DNA of 64,000 nucleotides, taken from Rhodospirillaceae bacterium SYSU D60007 (GTDB lineage: Bacteria; Pseudomonadota; Alphaproteobacteria; Reyranellales; Reyranellaceae). Shown in pieces: positions 5,544 through 34,605 of the stretch (position 1 is its first letter; each line of letters begins with the position of its first letter). A program made the translations under genes and the position numbers. The DNA is taken from the NCBI GenBank assembly GCA_003574685.1, contig QOCQ01000023.1:1-64000 (forward strand), given 5' to 3'. The notes beneath the pieces are model-generated. The model was given only the letters and a program-made list of their open reading frames with translations. It was not told the DNA's origin and made no database searches.

Positions 5544-6812
5544 ATGACCACATCCGCACAAGCCGCTATTGCGACGGACATTGATGCCGTTGACATCGAC
5601 GCGATGCCGCTGACGCGGATCAACGTCAGCGATCCGCAGCTCTACCAGGACGATACGTGGCGGCCCCTGTTCGCACGGTTGCGCCGCGAGGATCCGGTTC
5701 ACTACTGCCCGGACAGCCCGTACGGGCCGTACTGGTCGGTCACCCGCTACAAGGACATCATGGATGTCGAGCTGAACCACGCCGTCTATTCCTCCTCGGC
5801 GGAGCTGGGAGGGATTCAGATCACGGACGCGACTCTCGGCCGCGAGGTCGTGAGCTTCATCCGCATGGACCCGCCCGGCCATACGGTGCGGCGGCGCACA
5901 GTGGCGCCGATCGTTGGTCCGGCCAACCTCGCCAATCTGGAGGCAACGATCCGGCAACGCACGGCAGGCGTGCTCGATGGCCTGCCGCGCAACGAGACCT
6001 TCGACTGGGTGGACCGCGTGTCGATCGAGCTGACGACCATGATGCTGGCCACCTTGTTTGATTTTCCGTGGGAGGATCGCCGCAAACTTACCTGGTGGTC
6101 CGATGTCGCCATTGCCAATGTCAATGCACCCGATGCTCCAGTGAGGAGCGAGGACGAGCGCTTCGCCGAGCTCGGCCGCATGGCTGAATATTTCTCGCGG
6201 CTGTGGAACGAACGTGTCAATGCGGCGCCGAAATTCGACCTGATCTCGATGCTGGCGCACGGTGAATCCACGCGCAACATGACTCCGGCCGAGTTCGTCG
6301 GCACGCTGGCGCTGCTGATCGTGGGCGGCAATGATACGACACGCAATACGATGTCAGGCGGCCTGCTCGCGCTGCATCAGAATCCGGAGCAGTGGCGCAA
6401 GCTGCGCGCCAATGCCGCGCTGGTGCCGAGCCTGGTCGCCGAAACCATCCGCTACCAGACGCCGGTGATCCATATGCGCCGCACGGCCCTGGCCGACGCA
6501 GAGCTGGGCGGCAAGCACATCCGCAAGGGCGACAAGGTGGTGATGTGGTACATCTCGGGCAATCGCGATGAGACCGCCATCGACGCGCCCGAGGATTTCA
6601 TCGTCGACCGCGCCAAACCGCGCCAGCATCTTTCTTACGGCGCCGGCATCCACCGCTGCGTCGGTGATCGGCTGGCCGACCTCCAGTTGCGCATTCTGTG
6701 GGAGGAAATCCTGCGACGCGACCTTGACATCGAGGTCGCAGGACCGCCGAAGCGGCTCTATTCCAACTTCCTGCGCGGCTTTCGCGAGCTTCCCGTCCGG
6801 ATCAACGCCTGA
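5544..6812 (+). CDS. Cytochrome P450, CYP153-like
   Basis: A 422-residue P450 with complete motifs: I-helix LLIVGGNDTTRNTMSGG, K-helix ETIRYQ and haem loop HLSYGAGIHRCVG (Cys372). The GGNDTTRN(S/T)M segment, the YKDIMDVELNHAVYSS N-terminal stretch and the GIHRCVG loop match what I know of the CYP153 terminal alkane/fatty-acid hydroxylase group, so I call it CYP153-like; assignment to the subfamily needs alignment. Start ATG 5544 follows GAGGGT. No ferredoxin or ferredoxin reductase is seen nearby, unlike classical CYP153 operons. It sits 7 nt after the serine hydrolase. Confidence 0.9.
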   Translation: MTTSAQAAIATDIDAVDIDAMPLTRINVSDPQLYQDDTWRPLFARLRREDPVHYCPDSPYGPYWSVTRYKDIMDVELNHAVYSSSAELGGIQITDATLGREVVSFIRMDPPGHTVRRRTVAPIVGPANLANLEATIRQRTAGVLDGLPRNETFDWVDRVSIELTTMMLATLFDFPWEDRRKLTWWSDVAIANVNAPDAPVRSEDERFAELGRMAEYFSRLWNERVNAAPKFDLISMLAHGESTRNMTPAEFVGTLALLIVGGNDTTRNTMSGGLLALHQNPEQWRKLRANAALVPSLVAETIRYQTPVIHMRRTALADAELGGKHIRKGDKVVMWYISGNRDETAIDAPEDFIVDRAKPRQHLSYGAGIHRCVGDRLADLQLRILWEEILRRDLDIEVAGPPKRLYSNFLRGFRELPVRINA

Positions 6813-25860: not shown

Positions 25861-26238
25861 TCAACCTGCCCTTCGCGACAGCGTGAGCGGCAGGTCCAGT
25901 TCCACACGATCGTGCATCACCTTCGGTGTGATGCGGCCCCGCTCGCCCCGTTCAAGGTGGACCAAGCCATAGCCTTCCATCGTGCGCAGCGTGCGCGAGA
26001 GGTTGGATTTTGCCTTGCCGGTAATGCGGGCCAGTTCGTCGAGCGAGCCGGGCGCTTTCTCGGCGATGACGCGCAGCAGCTCGCGATTGCCGGCAGAGAG
26101 GACCTTGGCGAACGACTCGGTCGAGGTGAACCAGACCTTCGGCTCGTTGGCTGCGATGCGACGCTTGCCGCGCGCCACCGCCATGGTGCGCGCCTTCATC
26201 TCCTCGTAGCTGGCGATGCCCACTTTCAGCGTGGTCAT
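25861..26238 (-). CDS. HTH transcriptional regulator, probable antitoxin partner of a TumE-like toxin
   Basis: A 125-residue MarR-like winged-helix protein (SAGNRELLRVIAEKAPGSLDELARITGKAKSNLSRTLRTMEGYGLVHLERGERGRITPKV). Its N-terminal helix (IASYEEMKARTMAVARGKR) is typical of the HVO_A0114-type regulators paired with DUF6516/TumE proteins. The start overlaps the stop of the upstream TumE-like frame by 4 nt (ATGA, 26235-26238), which fits a toxin-antitoxin operon with autoregulation. The regulator is intact while the toxin frame is broken. Confidence 0.8.
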   Translation of the reverse strand: MTTLKVGIASYEEMKARTMAVARGKRRIAANEPKVWFTSTESFAKVLSAGNRELLRVIAEKAPGSLDELARITGKAKSNLSRTLRTMEGYGLVHLERGERGRITPKVMHDRVELDLPLTLSRRAG

Positions 26239-26590
26239 GGGATCACTCCTCTCTCGCGCAACACTGCGTCCACCGTCGTCCAAAAGTCCGCGAGCAAGGT
26301 CGCGGCATCCCGGTACTTGTAAGCCCTGATCGTCCGCAGCCGGTGCCGGTGATCCTGCGGCTCGCCACGCTTCTGCCTGGTAACCGGATGGGCATTGTCG
26401 AACCCGACCAGCCGTTCGCCATCTGGCCCATGCAGCGTAAGCGAGTAGTCGATGCCATGCGGCTTCTCCCGCGACACCGGCACCAGCGTCACGACGACCG
26501 AACCCAGTGCGCGCCGTCCGGGTCCACCACGAGGACCTGCCCGTCGAGGTCCAGAAGCACATCGAGAGTTGGGTCACGCGGCTCCGCCAC
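26235..26590 (-). pseudogene. TumE/DUF6516-like toxin, split by a frameshift
   Basis: Two overlapping leftward frames together make one protein. The first, from GTG 26590 to a stop at 26489, reads AEPRDPTLDVLLDLDGQVLVVDPDGAHWVR. The second, 26492-26235, reads TLVPVSREKPHGIDYSLTLHGPDGERLVGFDNAHPV and DHRHRLRTIRAYKYRDAATLLADFW, the DUF6516/TumE pattern. Adding one nucleotide near 26495 would join them as WVRFVVTLVPV. No slippery heptamer is visible, so a 1-nt deletion (or a sequencing error) is more likely than programmed frameshifting. TATGAT lies 11 nt before the GTG, as in a leaderless transcript. Confidence 0.7.
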
Positions 26591-26859: not shown

Positions 26860-27017
26860 CGGGAGCAGCGCTGCGCAGGATCAGGCCCGCTGTCGCCGCT
26901 GGCGGGCGAAACGACAACCTTCGGCCGTCATGCGCACGGTGTGCACGTCGGGCCTGCCAATGACCGCGATCCAGCCATTTTCGGCGGCCCGCCGCGCCGC
27001 CGCTTGGCAGGCGTCGT
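26860..27017. repeat. 158-bp direct repeat, left copy (truncated gene copy)
   Basis: This block matches 30877-31034 at all but about three positions, in the same orientation (offset 4,017 nt). In the right copy it is the 3' part of an intact 83-residue leftward gene. Here the same reading frame (stop at 26881-26883; GWIAVIGRPDVHTVRMT) is cut off at 27017, so it is a gene fragment. The two copies bracket the ligase remnant and both RTX-like genes. Confidence 0.9.
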
Positions 27018-27170: not shown

Positions 27171-27860
27171 CTACCGACATGGGCGGCGGGTCGCTGGAAC
27201 CGCCGCCGCAGGCCGCTCCTTACGCACAGCGTCCGCGCTCTTGTCCTCGCGGATGCCGCGATAGGATGGATGGCGTGCCGTCGCTGGTGAACTCCGTGAA
27301 TGCCGCCTGTAGGACAGTCGCGGATCCAGCCACGCCGTTGAACCTCCGAGGGCAGCTTGCCCTTCAGAGAGGACGTAGCCCGTTCCAGGGGCGTCATCAC
27401 CGCCCGCAGTCGTCGTAGCTCCTGATGGGAGAACCCCGTTCCGACATGACCCGCGTAACGCAACCCGTCCGCGTCGTTCAACGCCAGGATCAGCGATGAG
27501 AACGGGCGCGCGACAACATCGGATCTGGTGTAGCCGGCGACCACGAACTCCTGCTCCTGAAGGCATTTCACCTTCACCCAGTCGCCGCTGCGTTTGGAGC
27601 GATAGGGTCGGTCGCCGCGCTTGGCAATGATGCCTTCGTAGTTGCGCTGGCACAGGGACCGGAACAGCTCCGCGCCGCGCTCGGCGATGTGGGCGCCGTA
27701 GATCAGCGTCGGATCCGGCTTGGCAAGGATCTTCGCCAAGCGCTCCTTGCGTTCCAGAAGCGGGATCTGCCGAAGGTCGACCCTGTCGAGGTACAACAGG
27801 TCGAAGGCAACGAAGCGAATGCCGGCACCGCCACGGGTCAGGGTAAAGTCAGTTAGAGAG
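27171..27860 (-). pseudogene. Decayed ATP-dependent DNA ligase (LigD-type) fragment
   Basis: Leftward remnants of an NHEJ-type ATP-dependent ligase. One frame holds FVAFDLLYLDRVDLRQIPLLERKERLAKIL, YEGIIAKRGDRPYRSKRSGDWVKVKCLQEQEFVVAGYT and a GYAGHVGTGFS-like OB-fold region. Near 27370 the coding moves to a second frame (QAAFTEFTSDGT), then to a third (RHPSYRGIREDKSADAVRKE), so at least two frameshifts are present. The catalytic KxDG part and everything upstream are missing. Non-functional. Confidence 0.85.
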
Positions 27861-28116
27861 CCGATAATACACGCTTGGCGAATGATTTTAGTCGCCGTGC
27901 CTGTGGCTTTGCGGGCACCGAGCTTTGCCGAAGTAGCGGCAATCTTGTTGGCATTTCCCGGTCGATGTACCTGGCGTGAACGACACCCGAGCGCGAACGA
28001 GAAAGTAGTAGTGGCCGCTGCTACCGGCGGCCCCTGCTTGGGAGGCGACGATGGCGCTCAACGTGGGCGCGTAGGCTCGCGTGCGTAAGGCCAAGAAATT
28101 CGTGGGAGGTGACTCC

Positions 28117-29568
28117 ATGACTGACATCATCGGCGACCTCAAGAACAACACGCTGATCGGAACCCCCGACTTCGACACTATCATCGGCGACCGCATGGGC
28201 GACCTCATTGGCAGCGAGCGCGGCGGTAACGACCTGATCTTTGGCCTCGAAGGGAACGACCGCCTTTTCGGCGATGTCGGCGGTGATTTCGGCGACGCCG
28301 CCTCCATCGTCGGCCATGCCCGCGGCGGCAACGACCGGCTGGACGGTGGCGACGGGGCCGACGTCCTGGTCGGTGATGCCGGCCAGTCATTGTTCGACCA
28401 AGCCCGCGGCGGCAACGACGTTCTCATCGGCGCAGCGGGGCAAGATTTCCTGGTTGGCGATGCAGGGTTTTTCATGGCAGGCAGCGCGCGAGGTGGCAAC
28501 GACCGGCTCGATGGCGGCGACGGCGACGATCGGCTGTTCGGCGACGGCGGCGACCTTCGCGGCAACGCACGCGGTGGCGCCGATCTGCTGGTCGGCGGGA
28601 GCGGATCAGATTCCCTCGTCGGCGACGGGTCGGCTCTGTCCGACAATGCCCGTGGTGGTAATGACCGGCTCGACGGTGGCGAGGGTGACGACCGGCTGGC
28701 GGGCGATGCGGACTTCTTGATGCGGGGCAACGCCCGAGGCGGTGACGACGTGCTGGAGGGTGGCGGTGGGTTCGATGTTCTGTTCGGTGATGTCAGCAGC
28801 AATATGTTCGGCAATTCACGTGGCGGGGATGACGTCTTGATCGTCGGGGATGGCGGCGCCAACCTCTACGGCGACGCCGGAGACAGCTTTCTGTTTGGCG
28901 CCATGTTCGACAATACAAGCGGCGGCAACGACGTTCTGATGGGGGGAGCCGCGGCGGATGTCCTTTATGGTGAAGGCTTCCGCATGTCCGGTAACGCCCG
29001 CGGCGGCAATGACGTCCTCATCGCGGGTGCCGGGGGAGATACCCTGATCGGCGATGCCGTCCTTATCGGCGACAATGTGCAGGCCGGCGATGACCACCTG
29101 TCCGGCGGCGCGGGCGACGACATCCTCGAGGGCGATGGCTCGGTGATGTCGGGCGCGGCGCGGGGTGGCGATGACCGCCTCTTCGGCGGCGACGGCAATG
29201 ACTCCCTGGTGGGTGATGGCGGCGAAACCGCGCAGGGCGGTGACGACTGGCTGTTCGGCGGTGACGGCAACGACTCGCTGATCGGCGACGGCGTGCTGTT
29301 CCTTGGCACCCGGCTGGGCGGCGATGACCGCCTGTCCGGGTGCGCGGGCGATGACTCCCTCTCTGGCGGACCCGGCAGCGACCGGATCGACGGCGGGATC
29401 GGCACCGACACCGCGGCCTTCGACGGCGTGCTTGCCGGCTTCGAGATCGCGTCGCAGGGCGACCGGATCCTGGTTACCGAGATCGCCACGGACGACACGG
29501 ACACCATTACCGGCGTCGAGTTCCTGGCCTTCAACGACGTGGTCGTGGAGACAGGATTGTTCAGCTAA
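28117..29568 (+). CDS. RTX-like calcium-binding repeat protein A
   Basis: A 483-residue protein made almost wholly of glycine/aspartate repeats. About 14 units of roughly 25-30 residues follow the pattern xARGGNDRLDGGDGDDRLFGDxxxxxxGN. Each contains RTX-like GG(N/D)D and GGxGxDxLxG halves separated by a hydrophobic spacer, unlike the simple 9-residue RTX array. The last ~60 residues (GSDRIDGGxGTDTAAFDG, then ITGVEFLAFNDVV) match the C-terminal end of type I-secreted calcium-binding proteins. There is no N-terminal signal. Start 28117 follows GGAGGT. No ABC/HlyD secretion genes are nearby. It is paralogous to the next gene. Confidence 0.85.
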   Translation: MTDIIGDLKNNTLIGTPDFDTIIGDRMGDLIGSERGGNDLIFGLEGNDRLFGDVGGDFGDAASIVGHARGGNDRLDGGDGADVLVGDAGQSLFDQARGGNDVLIGAAGQDFLVGDAGFFMAGSARGGNDRLDGGDGDDRLFGDGGDLRGNARGGADLLVGGSGSDSLVGDGSALSDNARGGNDRLDGGEGDDRLAGDADFLMRGNARGGDDVLEGGGGFDVLFGDVSSNMFGNSRGGDDVLIVGDGGANLYGDAGDSFLFGAMFDNTSGGNDVLMGGAAADVLYGEGFRMSGNARGGNDVLIAGAGGDTLIGDAVLIGDNVQAGDDHLSGGAGDDILEGDGSVMSGAARGGDDRLFGGDGNDSLVGDGGETAQGGDDWLFGGDGNDSLIGDGVLFLGTRLGGDDRLSGCAGDDSLSGGPGSDRIDGGIGTDTAAFDGVLAGFEIASQGDRILVTEIATDDTDTITGVEFLAFNDVVVETGLFS

Positions 29569-29764
29569 GAGCAGCCGCAGGTCGGAACAGGCCGTCGTCG
29601 GCGCTGCTGAGCGCAGGCTTCAATGGCGCACGACCGGGTGCGATACGGCGCGCCGCAGCCGGATCGCCGCCCACCGAGAGCGACGGCAAGCCCGATGAGC
29701 GCGACGACGAAGCCCCGGCAAATAAGACTGCGGGCTTTCACCCGCCTCTCCAGGGAGGAGCGAA

Positions 29765-30697
29765 ATGGCAGACATTATCGGCGACTTCGCCAACAACACG
29801 CTCACCGGCACCGCCTTCTCCGATCGCGTTGTCGGCGACGTGGATACCCACCTCAGCGGCGATGACCGCGGCGGCAACGACCGGATCTTTGGCCTGCAGG
29901 GAGACGACTTCATCATCGGCGATGCCTTTGGCATCCTGCTCGACGAATCTCGCGGCGGCAACGACCGGCTGTTCGGCGGGGACGGTGACGACACTCTGTC
30001 CGGTGATGCCTTGGCCATGGAGGGCAACGGCCAGGGCGGCGACGACCGGATCTTTGGTATGCAGGGAAACGACGATATTTTTGGCGATGTCTCCGGCGAC
30101 CTGTTCGCCGAATCCCGCGGCGGCAACGACAAGCTGTTCGCTGGCGACGGGGAATTCGGACTCGTGGCCGGCGACGCTTCCGCAATGCATGACAACACTC
30201 GCGGCGGCGATGACCGGCTGTTCGGCGAGGGCGGCGTCGATAGCTTCGTCGGCGATGCCGTGGTCATGGACGGCAACGCCCAGGGCGGCAACGACCGGCT
30301 GTTCGGCGAGGGCGCCGACGATGTCCTGGTCGGCGATGCCCCCTTCATGTCCGACAACGCCCAGGGCGGCAACGACCGGCTGTTCGGCGGGGACGGTAAC
30401 GACACTCTGTTCGGTGATGCCGTCTCCCTGGAAGGCAGCGCGCAAGGCGGGGACGATCGTCTGTTCGGTGGGGCGGGTGACGACATCCTCTGGGGCGGCC
30501 CCGGCAGCGATCGGATCGACGGTGGTCCCGGCACCGACACCGCGGCGTTCGACGGCGCCCAGGCCGACTTCGAGATCACCGCGCAGGGCGACCGCGTCCT
30601 GGTTACCGAGATCGCCACGGACGATACTGACACCATCATCGATGTCGAGTTCCTGGCCTTCAACGACGTGGTCGGGGAGACGGGATTGTTCAGCTAG
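29765..30697 (+). CDS. RTX-like calcium-binding repeat protein B
   Basis: A 310-residue paralogue of the preceding protein. The N-terminus is nearly the same (MADIIGDFANNTLTGT) and so is the C-terminal module (RVLVTEIATDDTDTI, VEFLAFNDVVxETGLFS). It has about 8 repeat units of the same long type (NAQGGNDRLFGGDGNDTLFGDA). It is preceded by GGGAGGAG. The 196-nt gap to protein A and the shared ends indicate a tandem duplication followed by change in repeat number. It is probably exported by a type I system encoded elsewhere and folds on Ca2+ outside the cell. Confidence 0.85.
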   Translation: MADIIGDFANNTLTGTAFSDRVVGDVDTHLSGDDRGGNDRIFGLQGDDFIIGDAFGILLDESRGGNDRLFGGDGDDTLSGDALAMEGNGQGGDDRIFGMQGNDDIFGDVSGDLFAESRGGNDKLFAGDGEFGLVAGDASAMHDNTRGGDDRLFGEGGVDSFVGDAVVMDGNAQGGNDRLFGEGADDVLVGDAPFMSDNAQGGNDRLFGGDGNDTLFGDAVSLEGSAQGGDDRLFGGAGDDILWGGPGSDRIDGGPGTDTAAFDGAQADFEITAQGDRVLVTEIATDDTDTIIDVEFLAFNDVVGETGLFS

Positions 30698-30876: not shown

Positions 30877-31034
30877 CGGGAGCAGCGCTGCGCAGGATCA
30901 GGCCCGCTGTCGCCGCTGGCGGGCGAGGCGACAACCTTCGGCCGTCATGCGCACGGTGTGCACGTCGGGCCTGCCGATGACCGCGATCCAGCCATTTTCG
31001 GCGGCCCGCCGCGCCGCCGCTTGGCAGGCGTCGT
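30877..31034. repeat. 158-bp direct repeat, right copy
   Basis: The partner of 26860-27017, differing at about three positions. It covers the 3' two-thirds of the intact 83-residue leftward gene plus about 20 nt beyond its stop. Confidence 0.9.
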
Positions 31035-31149: not shown

Positions 31150-31336
31150 GCCCTTGCTCCGGCGCGCGCCCAAATGGGAAACCATAGTTGTCGATCACCT
31201 GCCCGCTTTTTCCGGCGGCTATAACGCGCAGCGAAGCTTGCGGTGCAGTGACAAAAGAGAGGCAGGGTCCGGTATAACGAAAATAATGGCCGCTCGTGCG
31301 CGTAGCGGACCGCAAACGCATCATCGCTGCCTTTAG

Positions 31337-31543
31337 GCACTTCGCGAGGCGGAGCGTATCGCCGATGAGTTTGAGCAATGGCTGAGTGGCCCCGTTGTGG
31401 AAGCCCTGAAGCTGCAACGACCCTTGCCAGAGGGCATTCTCAGGTCCTTCGTCGAAATGCCCGTCCACATTTCCGCAGCACGGCCCAAAGCAGAAAATGC
31501 AAAGCGCGGAACCCGGTCAGCACCACGGCGTTCGCAGCGCTAG
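31337..31543 (+). pseudogene. Possible C-terminal remnant of an SRAP/YedK (HMCES) protein
   Basis: An in-frame, start-less stretch reads ALREAERIADEFEQWLSGPVV, then EALKLQRPLPEGILRSF. The FxxWLxGxxxEALxLQRPLPxGxLR pattern resembles the C-terminal end of SOS-response-associated peptidases, which cap abasic DNA. The frame is closed just upstream (TAG at 31334), so nothing functional is expected. The rest of the 413-nt gap before 31563 shows no gene. Confidence 0.4.
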
Positions 31544-32214: not shown

Positions 32215-32336
32215 TCTCACGCAGCTCCAAGTGGAGATAATCAGCCAGGAAGTGCGCCGCAAGTCGGCGTAAGCGCCACTGCGATCGCGCACCTGGGCCG
32301 CCGTCGAGAGTTCAGTCTGTTGATTGACCCACTGCG

Positions 32337-32594
32337 CTAACGAGCCCGCGGCCGGCGCGCGACCCGACAGCCTTCCGGGGTCATTCGCACGCTATGCACC
32401 TCGCGTCCGCCGGCGGTGGCGATCCATCCCATGTCGGCGGCCCGGAGCGCGGCAGACTGGCACGCGGCATGATCGTGCAGGCCGGCGCGCTGGCGGATTT
32501 CGTCCAGCATGACCCAGCGCTGAACGTCACCGGCGACCGCATCGTTGAGGTGGTCGCGCAGGTTGGTTGCGAGACGATCGACAGCGCTTGGCAT
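32337..32594 (-). CDS. Small conserved protein, 'VHxVRMTxEGCRxAR' family, copy 2
   Basis: An 85-residue paralogue of 30898-31149, with the shared C-terminal half CQSAALRAADMGWIATAGGREVHSVRMTPEGCRVAR and a similar helical N-terminus (DHLNDAVAGDVQRWVMLDEI). Its start is 2 nt from the stop of the upstream 140-residue gene, so the two are co-transcribed. A winged-helix DNA-binding role is plausible only. Confidence 0.75.
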   Translation of the reverse strand: MPSAVDRLATNLRDHLNDAVAGDVQRWVMLDEIRQRAGLHDHAACQSAALRAADMGWIATAGGREVHSVRMTPEGCRVARRPRAR

Positions 32595-32596
32595 GG

Positions 32597-33019
32597 CTAT
32601 GGTCCAGGTGCCAACACCAGCTCGTAACCTTCGCTGTCCAACACCTGCCCATCCTCTACGATCGGTACGTAGACTGCGCTGCGCATCTCAGGGTCGGTGA
32701 CACTGATCTTCATTGGCATGCTATCCGGGCCGTGTGCCTGCGGCTGATACCGCAGGGTCCGGCGGTTCAGCGGCTGGTCCTGTGGCCGCTGATCGGGGCA
32801 GACCTCCTGGATCGCCACATAGACTGCGCAGCGACCCTGGGCGTCGGTCACGCGGATCGCCAGGGGCATGCAGTCGGGATATTCCCCGCCATGCTCCAGC
32901 GTCTCATAGCGCAGCGTGCGCCCGTCCAGAGTTGGGTCCTGTGGTCGGCCATCAGGCGGAAGGGGCCGATAGCGATGGATCGTGCGGCTGCCGTCGGGGT
33001 GGACTGTGATCTTCTCCAT
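32597..33019 (-). CDS. Hypothetical protein with internal tandem duplication
   Basis: A 140-residue unrecognised protein built of two similar halves. The first reads RPQDPTLDGRTLRYETLEHGG, then AIRVTDAQGRCAVYVAIQ. The second reads RPQDQPLNRRTLRYQPQAHGP, then KISVTDPEMRSAVYVPIV. Both look like beta-rich units. I chose ATG 33019 (MEKITVHPDG), where the protein-like sequence begins. It is divergent from the tandem-HTH regulator, with only 53 nt between starts, and forms an operon with the following 85-residue protein. Confidence 0.65.
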   Translation of the reverse strand: MEKITVHPDGSRTIHRYRPLPPDGRPQDPTLDGRTLRYETLEHGGEYPDCMPLAIRVTDAQGRCAVYVAIQEVCPDQRPQDQPLNRRTLRYQPQAHGPDSMPMKISVTDPEMRSAVYVPIVEDGQVLDSEGYELVLAPGP

Positions 33020-33072
33020 GCCTAGAACAACGCACGTGAGTACCGACGGTGCCACGCAAAGCGACTGTACCT

Positions 33073-33636
33073 ATGAAACGGTTTAAGCATTCAACGACTG
33101 ACGGGCGCATCTGGCGCGGCCAGAGAACCAAAAATCGGATCATTGCGGCAGCTCAGGACTTCGCCGCGGCGGGTGTCCTTGAACCAACGGGAGTACAGCT
33201 CGCCGAGCGCGCAGGGGTGCCGCTGCGCACGATCTACCAACACTTCGCCAGGATGTCTCTGCTGCGAAAGGAGGCGCTACGGCCAAAAGGGGCGGTGCGA
33301 CCCGAAGCGTCTCCTGTGTCTGTGAAGCGGTCGAAACATCCGAATATTGACGGACGCCTCCTGCGCAGCGAGAAAACCCGCAAGCGCATCATCGCGGCAT
33401 TTCAGGGCTTCGTTGCCCAGGGAATCCTTGAACCTAAGGGAGGCGAGCTCGCTAAGCGAGCAAAGGTGTCGCTGCGGGCTATCTACCAACATTTCCACAC
33501 GGCGGCCGTGCTACGACAGGAGTCACTCACTGAGGAGCAATGGCGGGCGGAAGCCTCGCGTCTGCGGGCGCTTTCAGATCGCGAGCTGGTCGAGGCGACC
33601 CTTGCTGGCCCGTTGAGTCGGAAGGCACGGCGATAA
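33073..33636 (+). CDS. Tandem TetR-type HTH protein without ligand domain
   Basis: A 187-residue protein carrying two copies of a TetR N-terminal DNA-binding domain: residues about 8-65 (TKNRIIAAAQDFAAAGVLEPTGVQLAERAGVPLRTIYQHFARMSLLRKEAL) and 90-150 (TRKRIIAAFQGFVAQGILEPKGGELAKRAKVSLRAIYQHFHTAAVLRQESL). No C-terminal ligand-binding or dimerisation domain follows, only about 35 charged residues. A normal TetR dimer has one HTH per chain, so this may act as a covalent pseudo-dimer. I prefer ATG 33073; GTG 33049 is possible. It is divergent from the duplicated-domain gene. Confidence 0.75.
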   Translation: MKRFKHSTTDGRIWRGQRTKNRIIAAAQDFAAAGVLEPTGVQLAERAGVPLRTIYQHFARMSLLRKEALRPKGAVRPEASPVSVKRSKHPNIDGRLLRSEKTRKRIIAAFQGFVAQGILEPKGGELAKRAKVSLRAIYQHFHTAAVLRQESLTEEQWRAEASRLRALSDRELVEATLAGPLSRKARR

Positions 33637-33789: not shown

Positions 33790-34605
33790 ATGTTTTTCGT
33801 TACCGAGGACGTGAAGCAGGGGGAGTCGCTTGGCGCCGTGATGAGCCGCTTCGGTCTGGACGAAGCCAAGCAGCGCGATACGCTGCTCCACAAGCACAAT
33901 GCTCACCTCCGGGCGGGTGCCGACGCACCGCAAGGCATTATTCCTGAGTTCATGTGGCGCATGTTGTTGACGATGCCGGTCGTCCAGAACGTGAAGATCG
34001 TCATCCCGATCGACATCAAACTGTCCGTGGTCGAATTCCAGCCGGTCATTGACCTGAAGAACGGGCTTCGACCGCGGCAAATGGGTGCCCTCGGGCCGCC
34101 GACGCTCACGCACGGCGTGAATGTGAAGATCAAGCACAATCTGCCTGCCAGCACAGGGCTGAACTGGATCCAGACAGTCAAGAAGATGAACAACCCGGAC
34201 CGCTCGGCGCCCGTCGAGTTCGTCGATGTCGGTCACAACAATCTGCCGTTTTTCATCCAGCCCGTGAACGGCGGGGCGCCGCCTGCGCTCGTCGACGATA
34301 CGCCCGTCGGCCCCGTCGCGCCGCGGCCGGGCGCCGGCGTGGACTTCACGGCGATGACGACAATCGCCGTCCTTGCGCGAGGTCACATCATTCTCGCAGC
34401 GGGCATGGTGTGGAGCTTCGTTATCGGTACGGCGAACAAGCTCCCGGAGGGGATCATGGTTCGCCAGCGACCACGGGACGCCACAGACATGGACTTCCGC
34501 AATCAGTTGCGCATCCTGAAGCTCGGTCTGAACCAGTATCGCGGCTCGACTGGACCAAACCTGGACTACGTTCTGCCGCCCTCGCCTGACAGCGTCGTAC
34601 CGTAA
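33790..34605 (+). CDS. Hypothetical protein, 271 residues
   Basis: I do not recognise this family. It follows GGGGGAA. The N-terminal VKQGESLGAVMSRFGLDEAKQRDTLLHKHN is weakly LysM-like (a 'QGESL' opening and an N-rich end). The middle has alternating beta-like stretches (VKIVIPIDIKLSVVEFQPVI), and a Pro/Ala-rich linker (GPVAPRPGAGVD) is near residue 180. No signal peptide or confident membrane helix is present. It could be an envelope or phage-type structural protein. It is monocistronic. Confidence 0.6.
   Translation: MFFVTEDVKQGESLGAVMSRFGLDEAKQRDTLLHKHNAHLRAGADAPQGIIPEFMWRMLLTMPVVQNVKIVIPIDIKLSVVEFQPVIDLKNGLRPRQMGALGPPTLTHGVNVKIKHNLPASTGLNWIQTVKKMNNPDRSAPVEFVDVGHNNLPFFIQPVNGGAPPALVDDTPVGPVAPRPGAGVDFTAMTTIAVLARGHIILAAGMVWSFVIGTANKLPEGIMVRQRPRDATDMDFRNQLRILKLGLNQYRGSTGPNLDYVLPPSPDSVVP

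Follow-up and report, generated by a model that had tools for sequence, protein, structure and literature searches.

A rare gene in Rhodospirillaceae bacterium SYSU D60007 encodes two tandem TetR-type DNA-binding heads without a ligand-binding domain

The gene described here, W, lies at 33049..33636 (+) of the window, the 64,000-nucleotide stretch of DNA that was analyzed, and encodes a tandem TetR-HTH protein, as judged from open reading frame, Pfam, unit alignment and charge computation. The gene is real, well-formed and rare. Its best reading, a purely anatomical one drawn from sequence and model, is that of a covalent pseudo-dimer that would bind DNA without an effector switch and that would have originated when an HTH-only TetR unit was duplicated in tandem; we consider the case for this reading to be evenly balanced. 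TetR proteins are textbook ligand switches, in which the C-terminal domain pairs two chains through its helices and sets the spacing of the two HTH heads on DNA. W resembles TetR family regulators in the HTH unit, both in sequence (TetR_N, PF00440) and in predicted fold, but differs in having two HTH units per chain and in missing the C-terminal ligand-binding and dimerization domain.

The open reading frame spans 33073-33636 (+) and gives 187 aa from ATG 33073; an in-frame GTG at 33049, eight codons upstream, gives 195 aa. Since the homology between the repeats extends by eye back to GTG 33049 (MPRKATVP-MKRFKH / VRPEASPVSVKRSKH), the longer start is plausible, and the gene perhaps begins there. 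Unit 1 (33097..33276, +) consists of TetR HTH helices 1-3 (model residues 17-65) and a short helix 4 (69-76), and unit 2 (33352..33525, +) of HTH helices 1-3 (102-148) and a short helix 4 (152-159). They are joined by a basic linker of residues 77-101 (33277..33351, +), partly predicted to be disordered (pLDDT below 50 at 85-99). Unit 2 is followed by a C-terminal tail with short predicted helices (162-174 and 177-185; 33526..33633, +), delimited by paralogue comparison and the model, and the chain stops about 35 residues past unit 2. Pfam TetR_N was found to match two stretches of W with a total score of 32.4 bits, above the cut-off of 24. In a genome-wide TetR_N search, the units individually scored about 19 bits each, below the cut-off, and the six NCBIfam models that match W are all TetR-type and all far below their cut-offs. 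The two units are about 55% identical over 80 columns, with an alignment score of 191 against a maximum of 54 in 2000 shuffles of unit 2; at the DNA level they match at 71% over 214 nt with a spacing of 249 nt. These shuffles, and the random drafts described below, are null controls, not designs. The computed pI of the protein is 11.6 and its net charge about +24.

An AlphaFold model was made from a seven-row alignment, the other six rows of which cover unit 2 alone. The model has a mean pLDDT of 75.8 and contains two three-helix heads, each with a short fourth helix. Ten-residue block means are 78-95 for residues 21-70 and 80-95 for residues 101-150, are low in the linker, and drop from 80 to 58 over the short tail helices. 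The pTM is 0.40, so the mutual placing of the two units is not predicted. A single-sequence model reached a pLDDT of 48 and was left unused. With VIA-align, unit 1 was superposed onto TetR DNA-binding domains (rows 1 and 2 both at Z 10.7, rmsd 1.9 and 1.7 Å, 67 and 66 residues); a note supplied with the tool warns that helical bundles may reach a Z near 10 by chance, and unit 2 was barely covered. We take all of the best 50 rows to be TetR-family proteins, partly by title. A whole-model Foldseek search returned nothing under E 0.001 in PDB or BFVD; all but two of its best 50 PDB rows are presumably, again partly by title, TetR-type or unnamed transcriptional regulators.

The layout is found a second time in the same genome (G000; 5.34 Mb, 58 contigs). 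Paralogue P, at C1:397281-397928, has two units and a similar tail, and W and P are 45% identical over 174 aa. The frame of P continues into the beginning of the SRAP gene that follows, which makes the final ~40 residues of P doubtful. Because another intact gene shares this layout, tail included, the layout of W is not a frame error. An error hiding a TetR C-terminus was also ruled out from the downstream side, where the DNA is a separate gene with its own paralogue: it encodes a 271-aa protein (33790..34605, +; no Pfam match at 0.5), the paralogue of which at C1:357 kb shows 92% aa identity and a dN/dS of 0.06. The DNA from 33642 onward has a homologous counterpart elsewhere in the genome (82% over 966 nt). 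No ligand-binding or dimerization domain was found in W, by sequence or model, or in P.

These results bear on the sequence-only reading made earlier of this DNA. Its central claim, a single chain that carries two homologous TetR HTH units and lacks a ligand-binding domain, is borne out by Pfam, the unit alignment, the paralogue and the model. The structure prediction that it had proposed as a check gave a TetR-like head for each unit, with a disordered linker between them. Of the observations that it had named as counting against it, neither a cryptic third domain nor a frame error was found, and as for HTH helices unfit for DNA binding, both units retain the TetR core, though individually they score weakly. 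The statement that the chain holds nothing else stands as regards a ligand-binding domain but not as regards the tail: about 35 residues, with the motif LTExQWxAEAxRLRALxDRELVEA common to W and P, are conserved in P and partly in a one-unit provirus relative, which makes W more than two HTH domains alone. A role as an anti-repressor, which had also been suggested, gains no support, because the C-terminal helices by which TetR proteins pair are missing from W.

How rare is the tandem layout? A TetR_N scan of the genome gave 31 matches at E up to 0.01, two of them falling in one frame only in W and P. A profile of the tandem layout was then built from W and P and run on draws of genomes from the family, class and phylum, which overlap; in the class and phylum draws, up to seven candidates per genome were scored. 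In 75 family genomes (E up to 1e-8), W and P were both recovered and no other tandem gene appeared among the matches listed, the next best of which was a one-unit protein of G001 (80.5 bits). Only W and P were found in 385 class genomes (E up to 1e-15) and in 398 phylum genomes (E up to 1e-14). The domain-architecture search for TetR_N-TetR_N proteins that had been proposed earlier thus confines the layout to this genome in the draws searched. Several family matches span both halves of the profile, and none of the seven examined is a tandem gene. Four of them (L013, L014, L016 and L017) each contain a single TetR_N stretch within a full-length TetR protein; one of these was inspected in full. 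The places in G006, G015 and G084 show either a single unit (L112) or two that lie about 500-700 nt apart in different frames (L113 and L114). The remaining family matches were judged from the match list, among the matches listed.

Searches outside these draws were likewise negative for the tandem form. No match to W was found by tblastn in phage records (E 1e-3) or plasmid records (E 1e-4), in genome contigs, or in PDB sequences at 0.001, and none to the tandem alignment in viral contigs. A search of genome contigs with the unit alignment A3 gave seven loci, namely one known provirus protein and six TetR heads of other proteins. In the open-licence literature searched with guessed phrases, no description of a tandem HTH-only TetR protein was found among the matches listed. 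A related arrangement, pairs of TetR units in separate frames about 500-900 nt apart, was observed at C1:265.6-266.8 kb of the same genome (L009) and in several family genomes (L039, L113 and L114); such neighbors are perhaps regulators working in pairs.

Comparison of W with P gives a dN of 0.46, a dS of 1.06 and a dN/dS of 0.43, suggesting moderate constraint, although this ratio averages over the time before any decay. Their protein identity is 0.467, whereas the same number of random substitutions gave a mean of 0.332 and a maximum of 0.408 in 2000 drafts, 99.3% of which contained a stop codon. Since the identity is above that of all drafts, both genes were maintained as protein-coding during some or all of their history. 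The R and [YF]xHF of the recognition-helix region are retained by all four units of W and P.

The first alternative to be weighed against the pseudo-dimer is that W is a decaying relic, the leftover open copy of a once repeated module that no longer does anything, to which we assign a minor but real chance. The constraint is only moderate, the third-position GC of W (0.65) is lower than that of most window genes picked by a codon score for which the window served as training set (mostly 0.76-0.92), W itself was not picked by that score, and the region contains SRAP and LigD-type ligase scraps and, probably, a scrap of a third TetR unit. On the other hand, W is open over 195 codons, both heads retain the HTH core, and W and P differ less as proteins than any draft, nearly all of which acquired stops.

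The scraps belong to a series that is intact at the P locus, where P, SRAP and a LigD-type ligase follow one another on the same strand; scraps of the same series lie at C1:357 kb and in the window. At 31310..31444 (+) is a probable scar, a TetR helix-1 scrap followed by a SRAP scrap in the order of the intact paralogue locus. The helix-1 scrap (31310-31344), with 80% match to unit 2 DNA, is 35 nt long and short enough to doubt alone, and the SRAP scrap (31364-31444) matches C1:396740-396820 at 90%. A broken LigD-type DNA ligase with a frame change near its end lies at 27210-27841 (-) and is 63% identical over 174 aa to the intact copy at C1:395-397 kb. More broadly, four loci (C1:352-359 kb, C1:391-400 kb, C18:62-69 kb and window 27-35 kb) carry pieces of one module in differing decay, namely SRAP, LigD-type ligase, DUF3606, TetR units, the 140-aa family and the 271-aa family, not all of them in each. 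The SRAP/LigD operon was considered as a clue to function and is a weak one: SRAP (E up to 1e-20) was found in 3 of 13 genomes, this one included, and no TetR unit stands beside SRAP among the ORFs of at least 60 aa in 3.6 kb at two outside loci and at the second SRAP locus of this genome.

Upstream of W is a divergent gene (32600..33019, -), encoding 140 aa from its assumed start, with no Pfam match at 0.5. By eye, its product looks like an internal duplication (GRPQDPTLDGRTLRYE / QRPQDQPLNRRTLRYQ). Partial relatives were found in three places, all in its own genome, in a search of 75 family genomes. The gap between its assumed start (ATG 33019) and GTG 33049 is 33020..33048, and the distance from the start of W to that assumed start is 30 to 54 nt. 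The divergent frame is open back to GTG 33055, so the gap to W may be smaller or absent. In 32980-33110, no operator palindrome was found with exact arms of at least 5 (or at least 8 with one mismatch) and a loop of up to 12; the operator may lie elsewhere or be non-palindromic.

Several other features of the window were noted. At 25864-26492 (-), a TumE toxin match (PF20126, 26238-26492) lies beside a PF25212 HTH protein (25864-26241), the two genes probably forming a toxin-antitoxin pair. A 158-nt stretch occurs in three copies (26860-27017, 30877-31034 and 32313-32470, the latter two at 98% and 61% to the first) in small genes without a clear family. Matches to the protein encoded at 32340-32594 (E up to 0.001) were found in 23 of the 75 family genomes, one of which is its own. 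In two glycine/aspartate-rich repeat genes at 28081-30697, a 72-nt unit is present 20 times at 60% or more, and we take these genes to resemble RTX-type proteins.

One-unit HTH-only TetR proteins are found in relatives: one in G001, which is of the same genus as the window genome (L042, 123 aa), three in G003 (L019, L040 and L041) and one in G016 (L043, 107 aa). Like W, they consist of TetR head and short tail (107-138 aa). Unlike W, they have a single head, and those in proviruses lie upstream of a DnaA_C-type gene. One of these five passes the TetR_N cut-off in Pfam (28.5 bits); the other four fall short of it. The pair L040/L041 shows a dN of 0.074, a dS of 0.64 and a ratio of 0.12 over 75 codons, indicating that HTH-only TetR proteins can be maintained genes.

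Some such one-unit proteins lie in predicted proviruses. The G001 protein (L042, 8063-8431, -), which has part of the unit 2 tail pattern, is encoded inside a predicted provirus of IMG/VR, with a Peptidase_S24 repressor, a replication initiation protein and a weak CII-like match (25.9 bits, cut-off 26) as neighbors and a Bac_DnaA_C protein two genes downstream. The G016 protein is identical to a viral-contig protein (L110, 6001-6324), directly after which comes a Bac_DnaA_C gene. A further one-unit protein (L111, about 5974-6306) is 58% identical to the latter, with a weak TetR unit (16.5 bits); there the order is S24 repressor, YdaS, TetR unit and then a weak DnaA_C match (17.1 bits, cut-off 31.5). 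A DnaA_C-type gene hence lies at most two genes downstream of the one-unit TetR gene in all three distinct provirus loci, in one of them weakly. No phage genes were seen by eye in the translations at the G003 loci of the three one-unit proteins, two one-unit relatives gave no match in phage records, and no phage genes were recognized near W (10 neighbors by Pfam, 4 by PHROGs).

The TetR unit of L111, just after YdaS, presumably occupies the place of YdaT. The position between a Cro/YdaS gene and replication genes, a feature of CII/YdaT, is that of this one-unit relative and not that of W. In lambda-like prophages, YdaT belongs to the POU-domain family, unlike W (PMC9986795). From these loci, a wider proposal can be framed, to which we would grant a smallish chance: HTH-only TetR proteins may form a small unrecognized class of provirus regulators doing the CII/YdaT job between repressor/YdaS and a DnaA_C-type initiator. 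Two chromosomal descendants of this class would here each have become two-headed through a tandem duplication of its own, yielding single-chain TetR regulators that work without a ligand.

The tail raises a second alternative to the pseudo-dimer, in which it would pair chains and the resulting four heads would bridge or coat DNA as an oligomeric or architectural protein, as opposed to one chain per operator. The strong conservation of the tail between W and P, the similar tail residues in the one-unit provirus relative, where something must replace the missing pairing domain, and the high positive charge of W are consistent with this, but tail helices so short, and modeled with such falling confidence, argue against it, and we consider it improbable.

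The history of the units was examined in trees resting on 66 aa or 198 nt and having long branches. In a DNA tree of 12 HTH cores, unit 1 of W groups with unit 2 of W (95/94), and trees constrained to join unit 1 of W with unit 1 of P, or unit 2 with unit 2, were rejected (p 0.033 and 0.016). In the protein tree, the same tendency falls short of significance (p 0.080 and 0.091), and neither tree firmly pairs the two P units. The trees fit separate tandem duplications in W and P, or homogenization of the units within each gene, which look alike in such trees. That the heads act singly, the duplication being a neutral accident kept because one head suffices, would agree with this DNA tree and with the existence of one-unit relatives, one pair of them conserved, but is very improbable given that W and P both retain two heads with intact cores.

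The pseudo-dimer reading may be set out as follows. An HTH-only TetR unit would have been duplicated in tandem to give W, and the flexible 25-residue linker would tie the two heads into one chain. Held together in this way, the heads could grip two neighboring major grooves without a pairing domain or a ligand switch, leaving the cellular amount of W as the only control. We further infer that W would bind DNA with both heads jointly and act as a repressor, controlling the divergent gene and W itself. The maximum span of the linker, computed over 26 steps, is about 88 Å, exceeding the 32-38 Å between HTH heads on DNA (quoted in PMC11667970, as excerpted). The high positive charge of W also speaks for this reading. 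Points against it are that no inverted repeat was found near the gene, that the units score weakly for TetR_N one by one, that the model leaves their mutual placing unpredicted, that constraint is moderate and third-position GC low, that gene scraps lie around W, and that one genome alone shows the design in the draws searched.

Known systems offer partial parallels, each described here from excerpts of the papers cited. In a normal TetR pair, the C-terminal halves hold the two heads together, and ligand binding releases the DNA (PMC11667970). Mce3R of M. tuberculosis, like W, has two TetR heads in one chain, which bind one nonpalindromic operator, and 204 putative double-TFRs in actinomycetes are cited in the same source (PMC11667970). 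However, Mce3R has 406 aa and consists of two distinct full TFRs fused around a ligand-binding four-helix bundle (PMC11667970), whereas W has 187-195 aa, comprises two close head copies only, and shows no four-helix core in sequence or model. Engineered single-chain Tet regulators work and fold intramolecularly, and like W have two TetR parts on a flexible linker; unlike W, they are man-made and have full TetR parts with effector-binding pockets (PMC1797012). GplR1 has been called unusual, yet has one HTH (PMC12455991).

What would W mean for the TetR family? If the pseudo-dimer reading is true, W would be a natural case of TetR heads that function as a linked pair with no sensor, and would offer a minimal system from nature in which to ask how far TetR action depends on head geometry. 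The one-headed provirus relatives point to a type of regulator that the libraries searched name only as TetR_N, mostly below cut-off.
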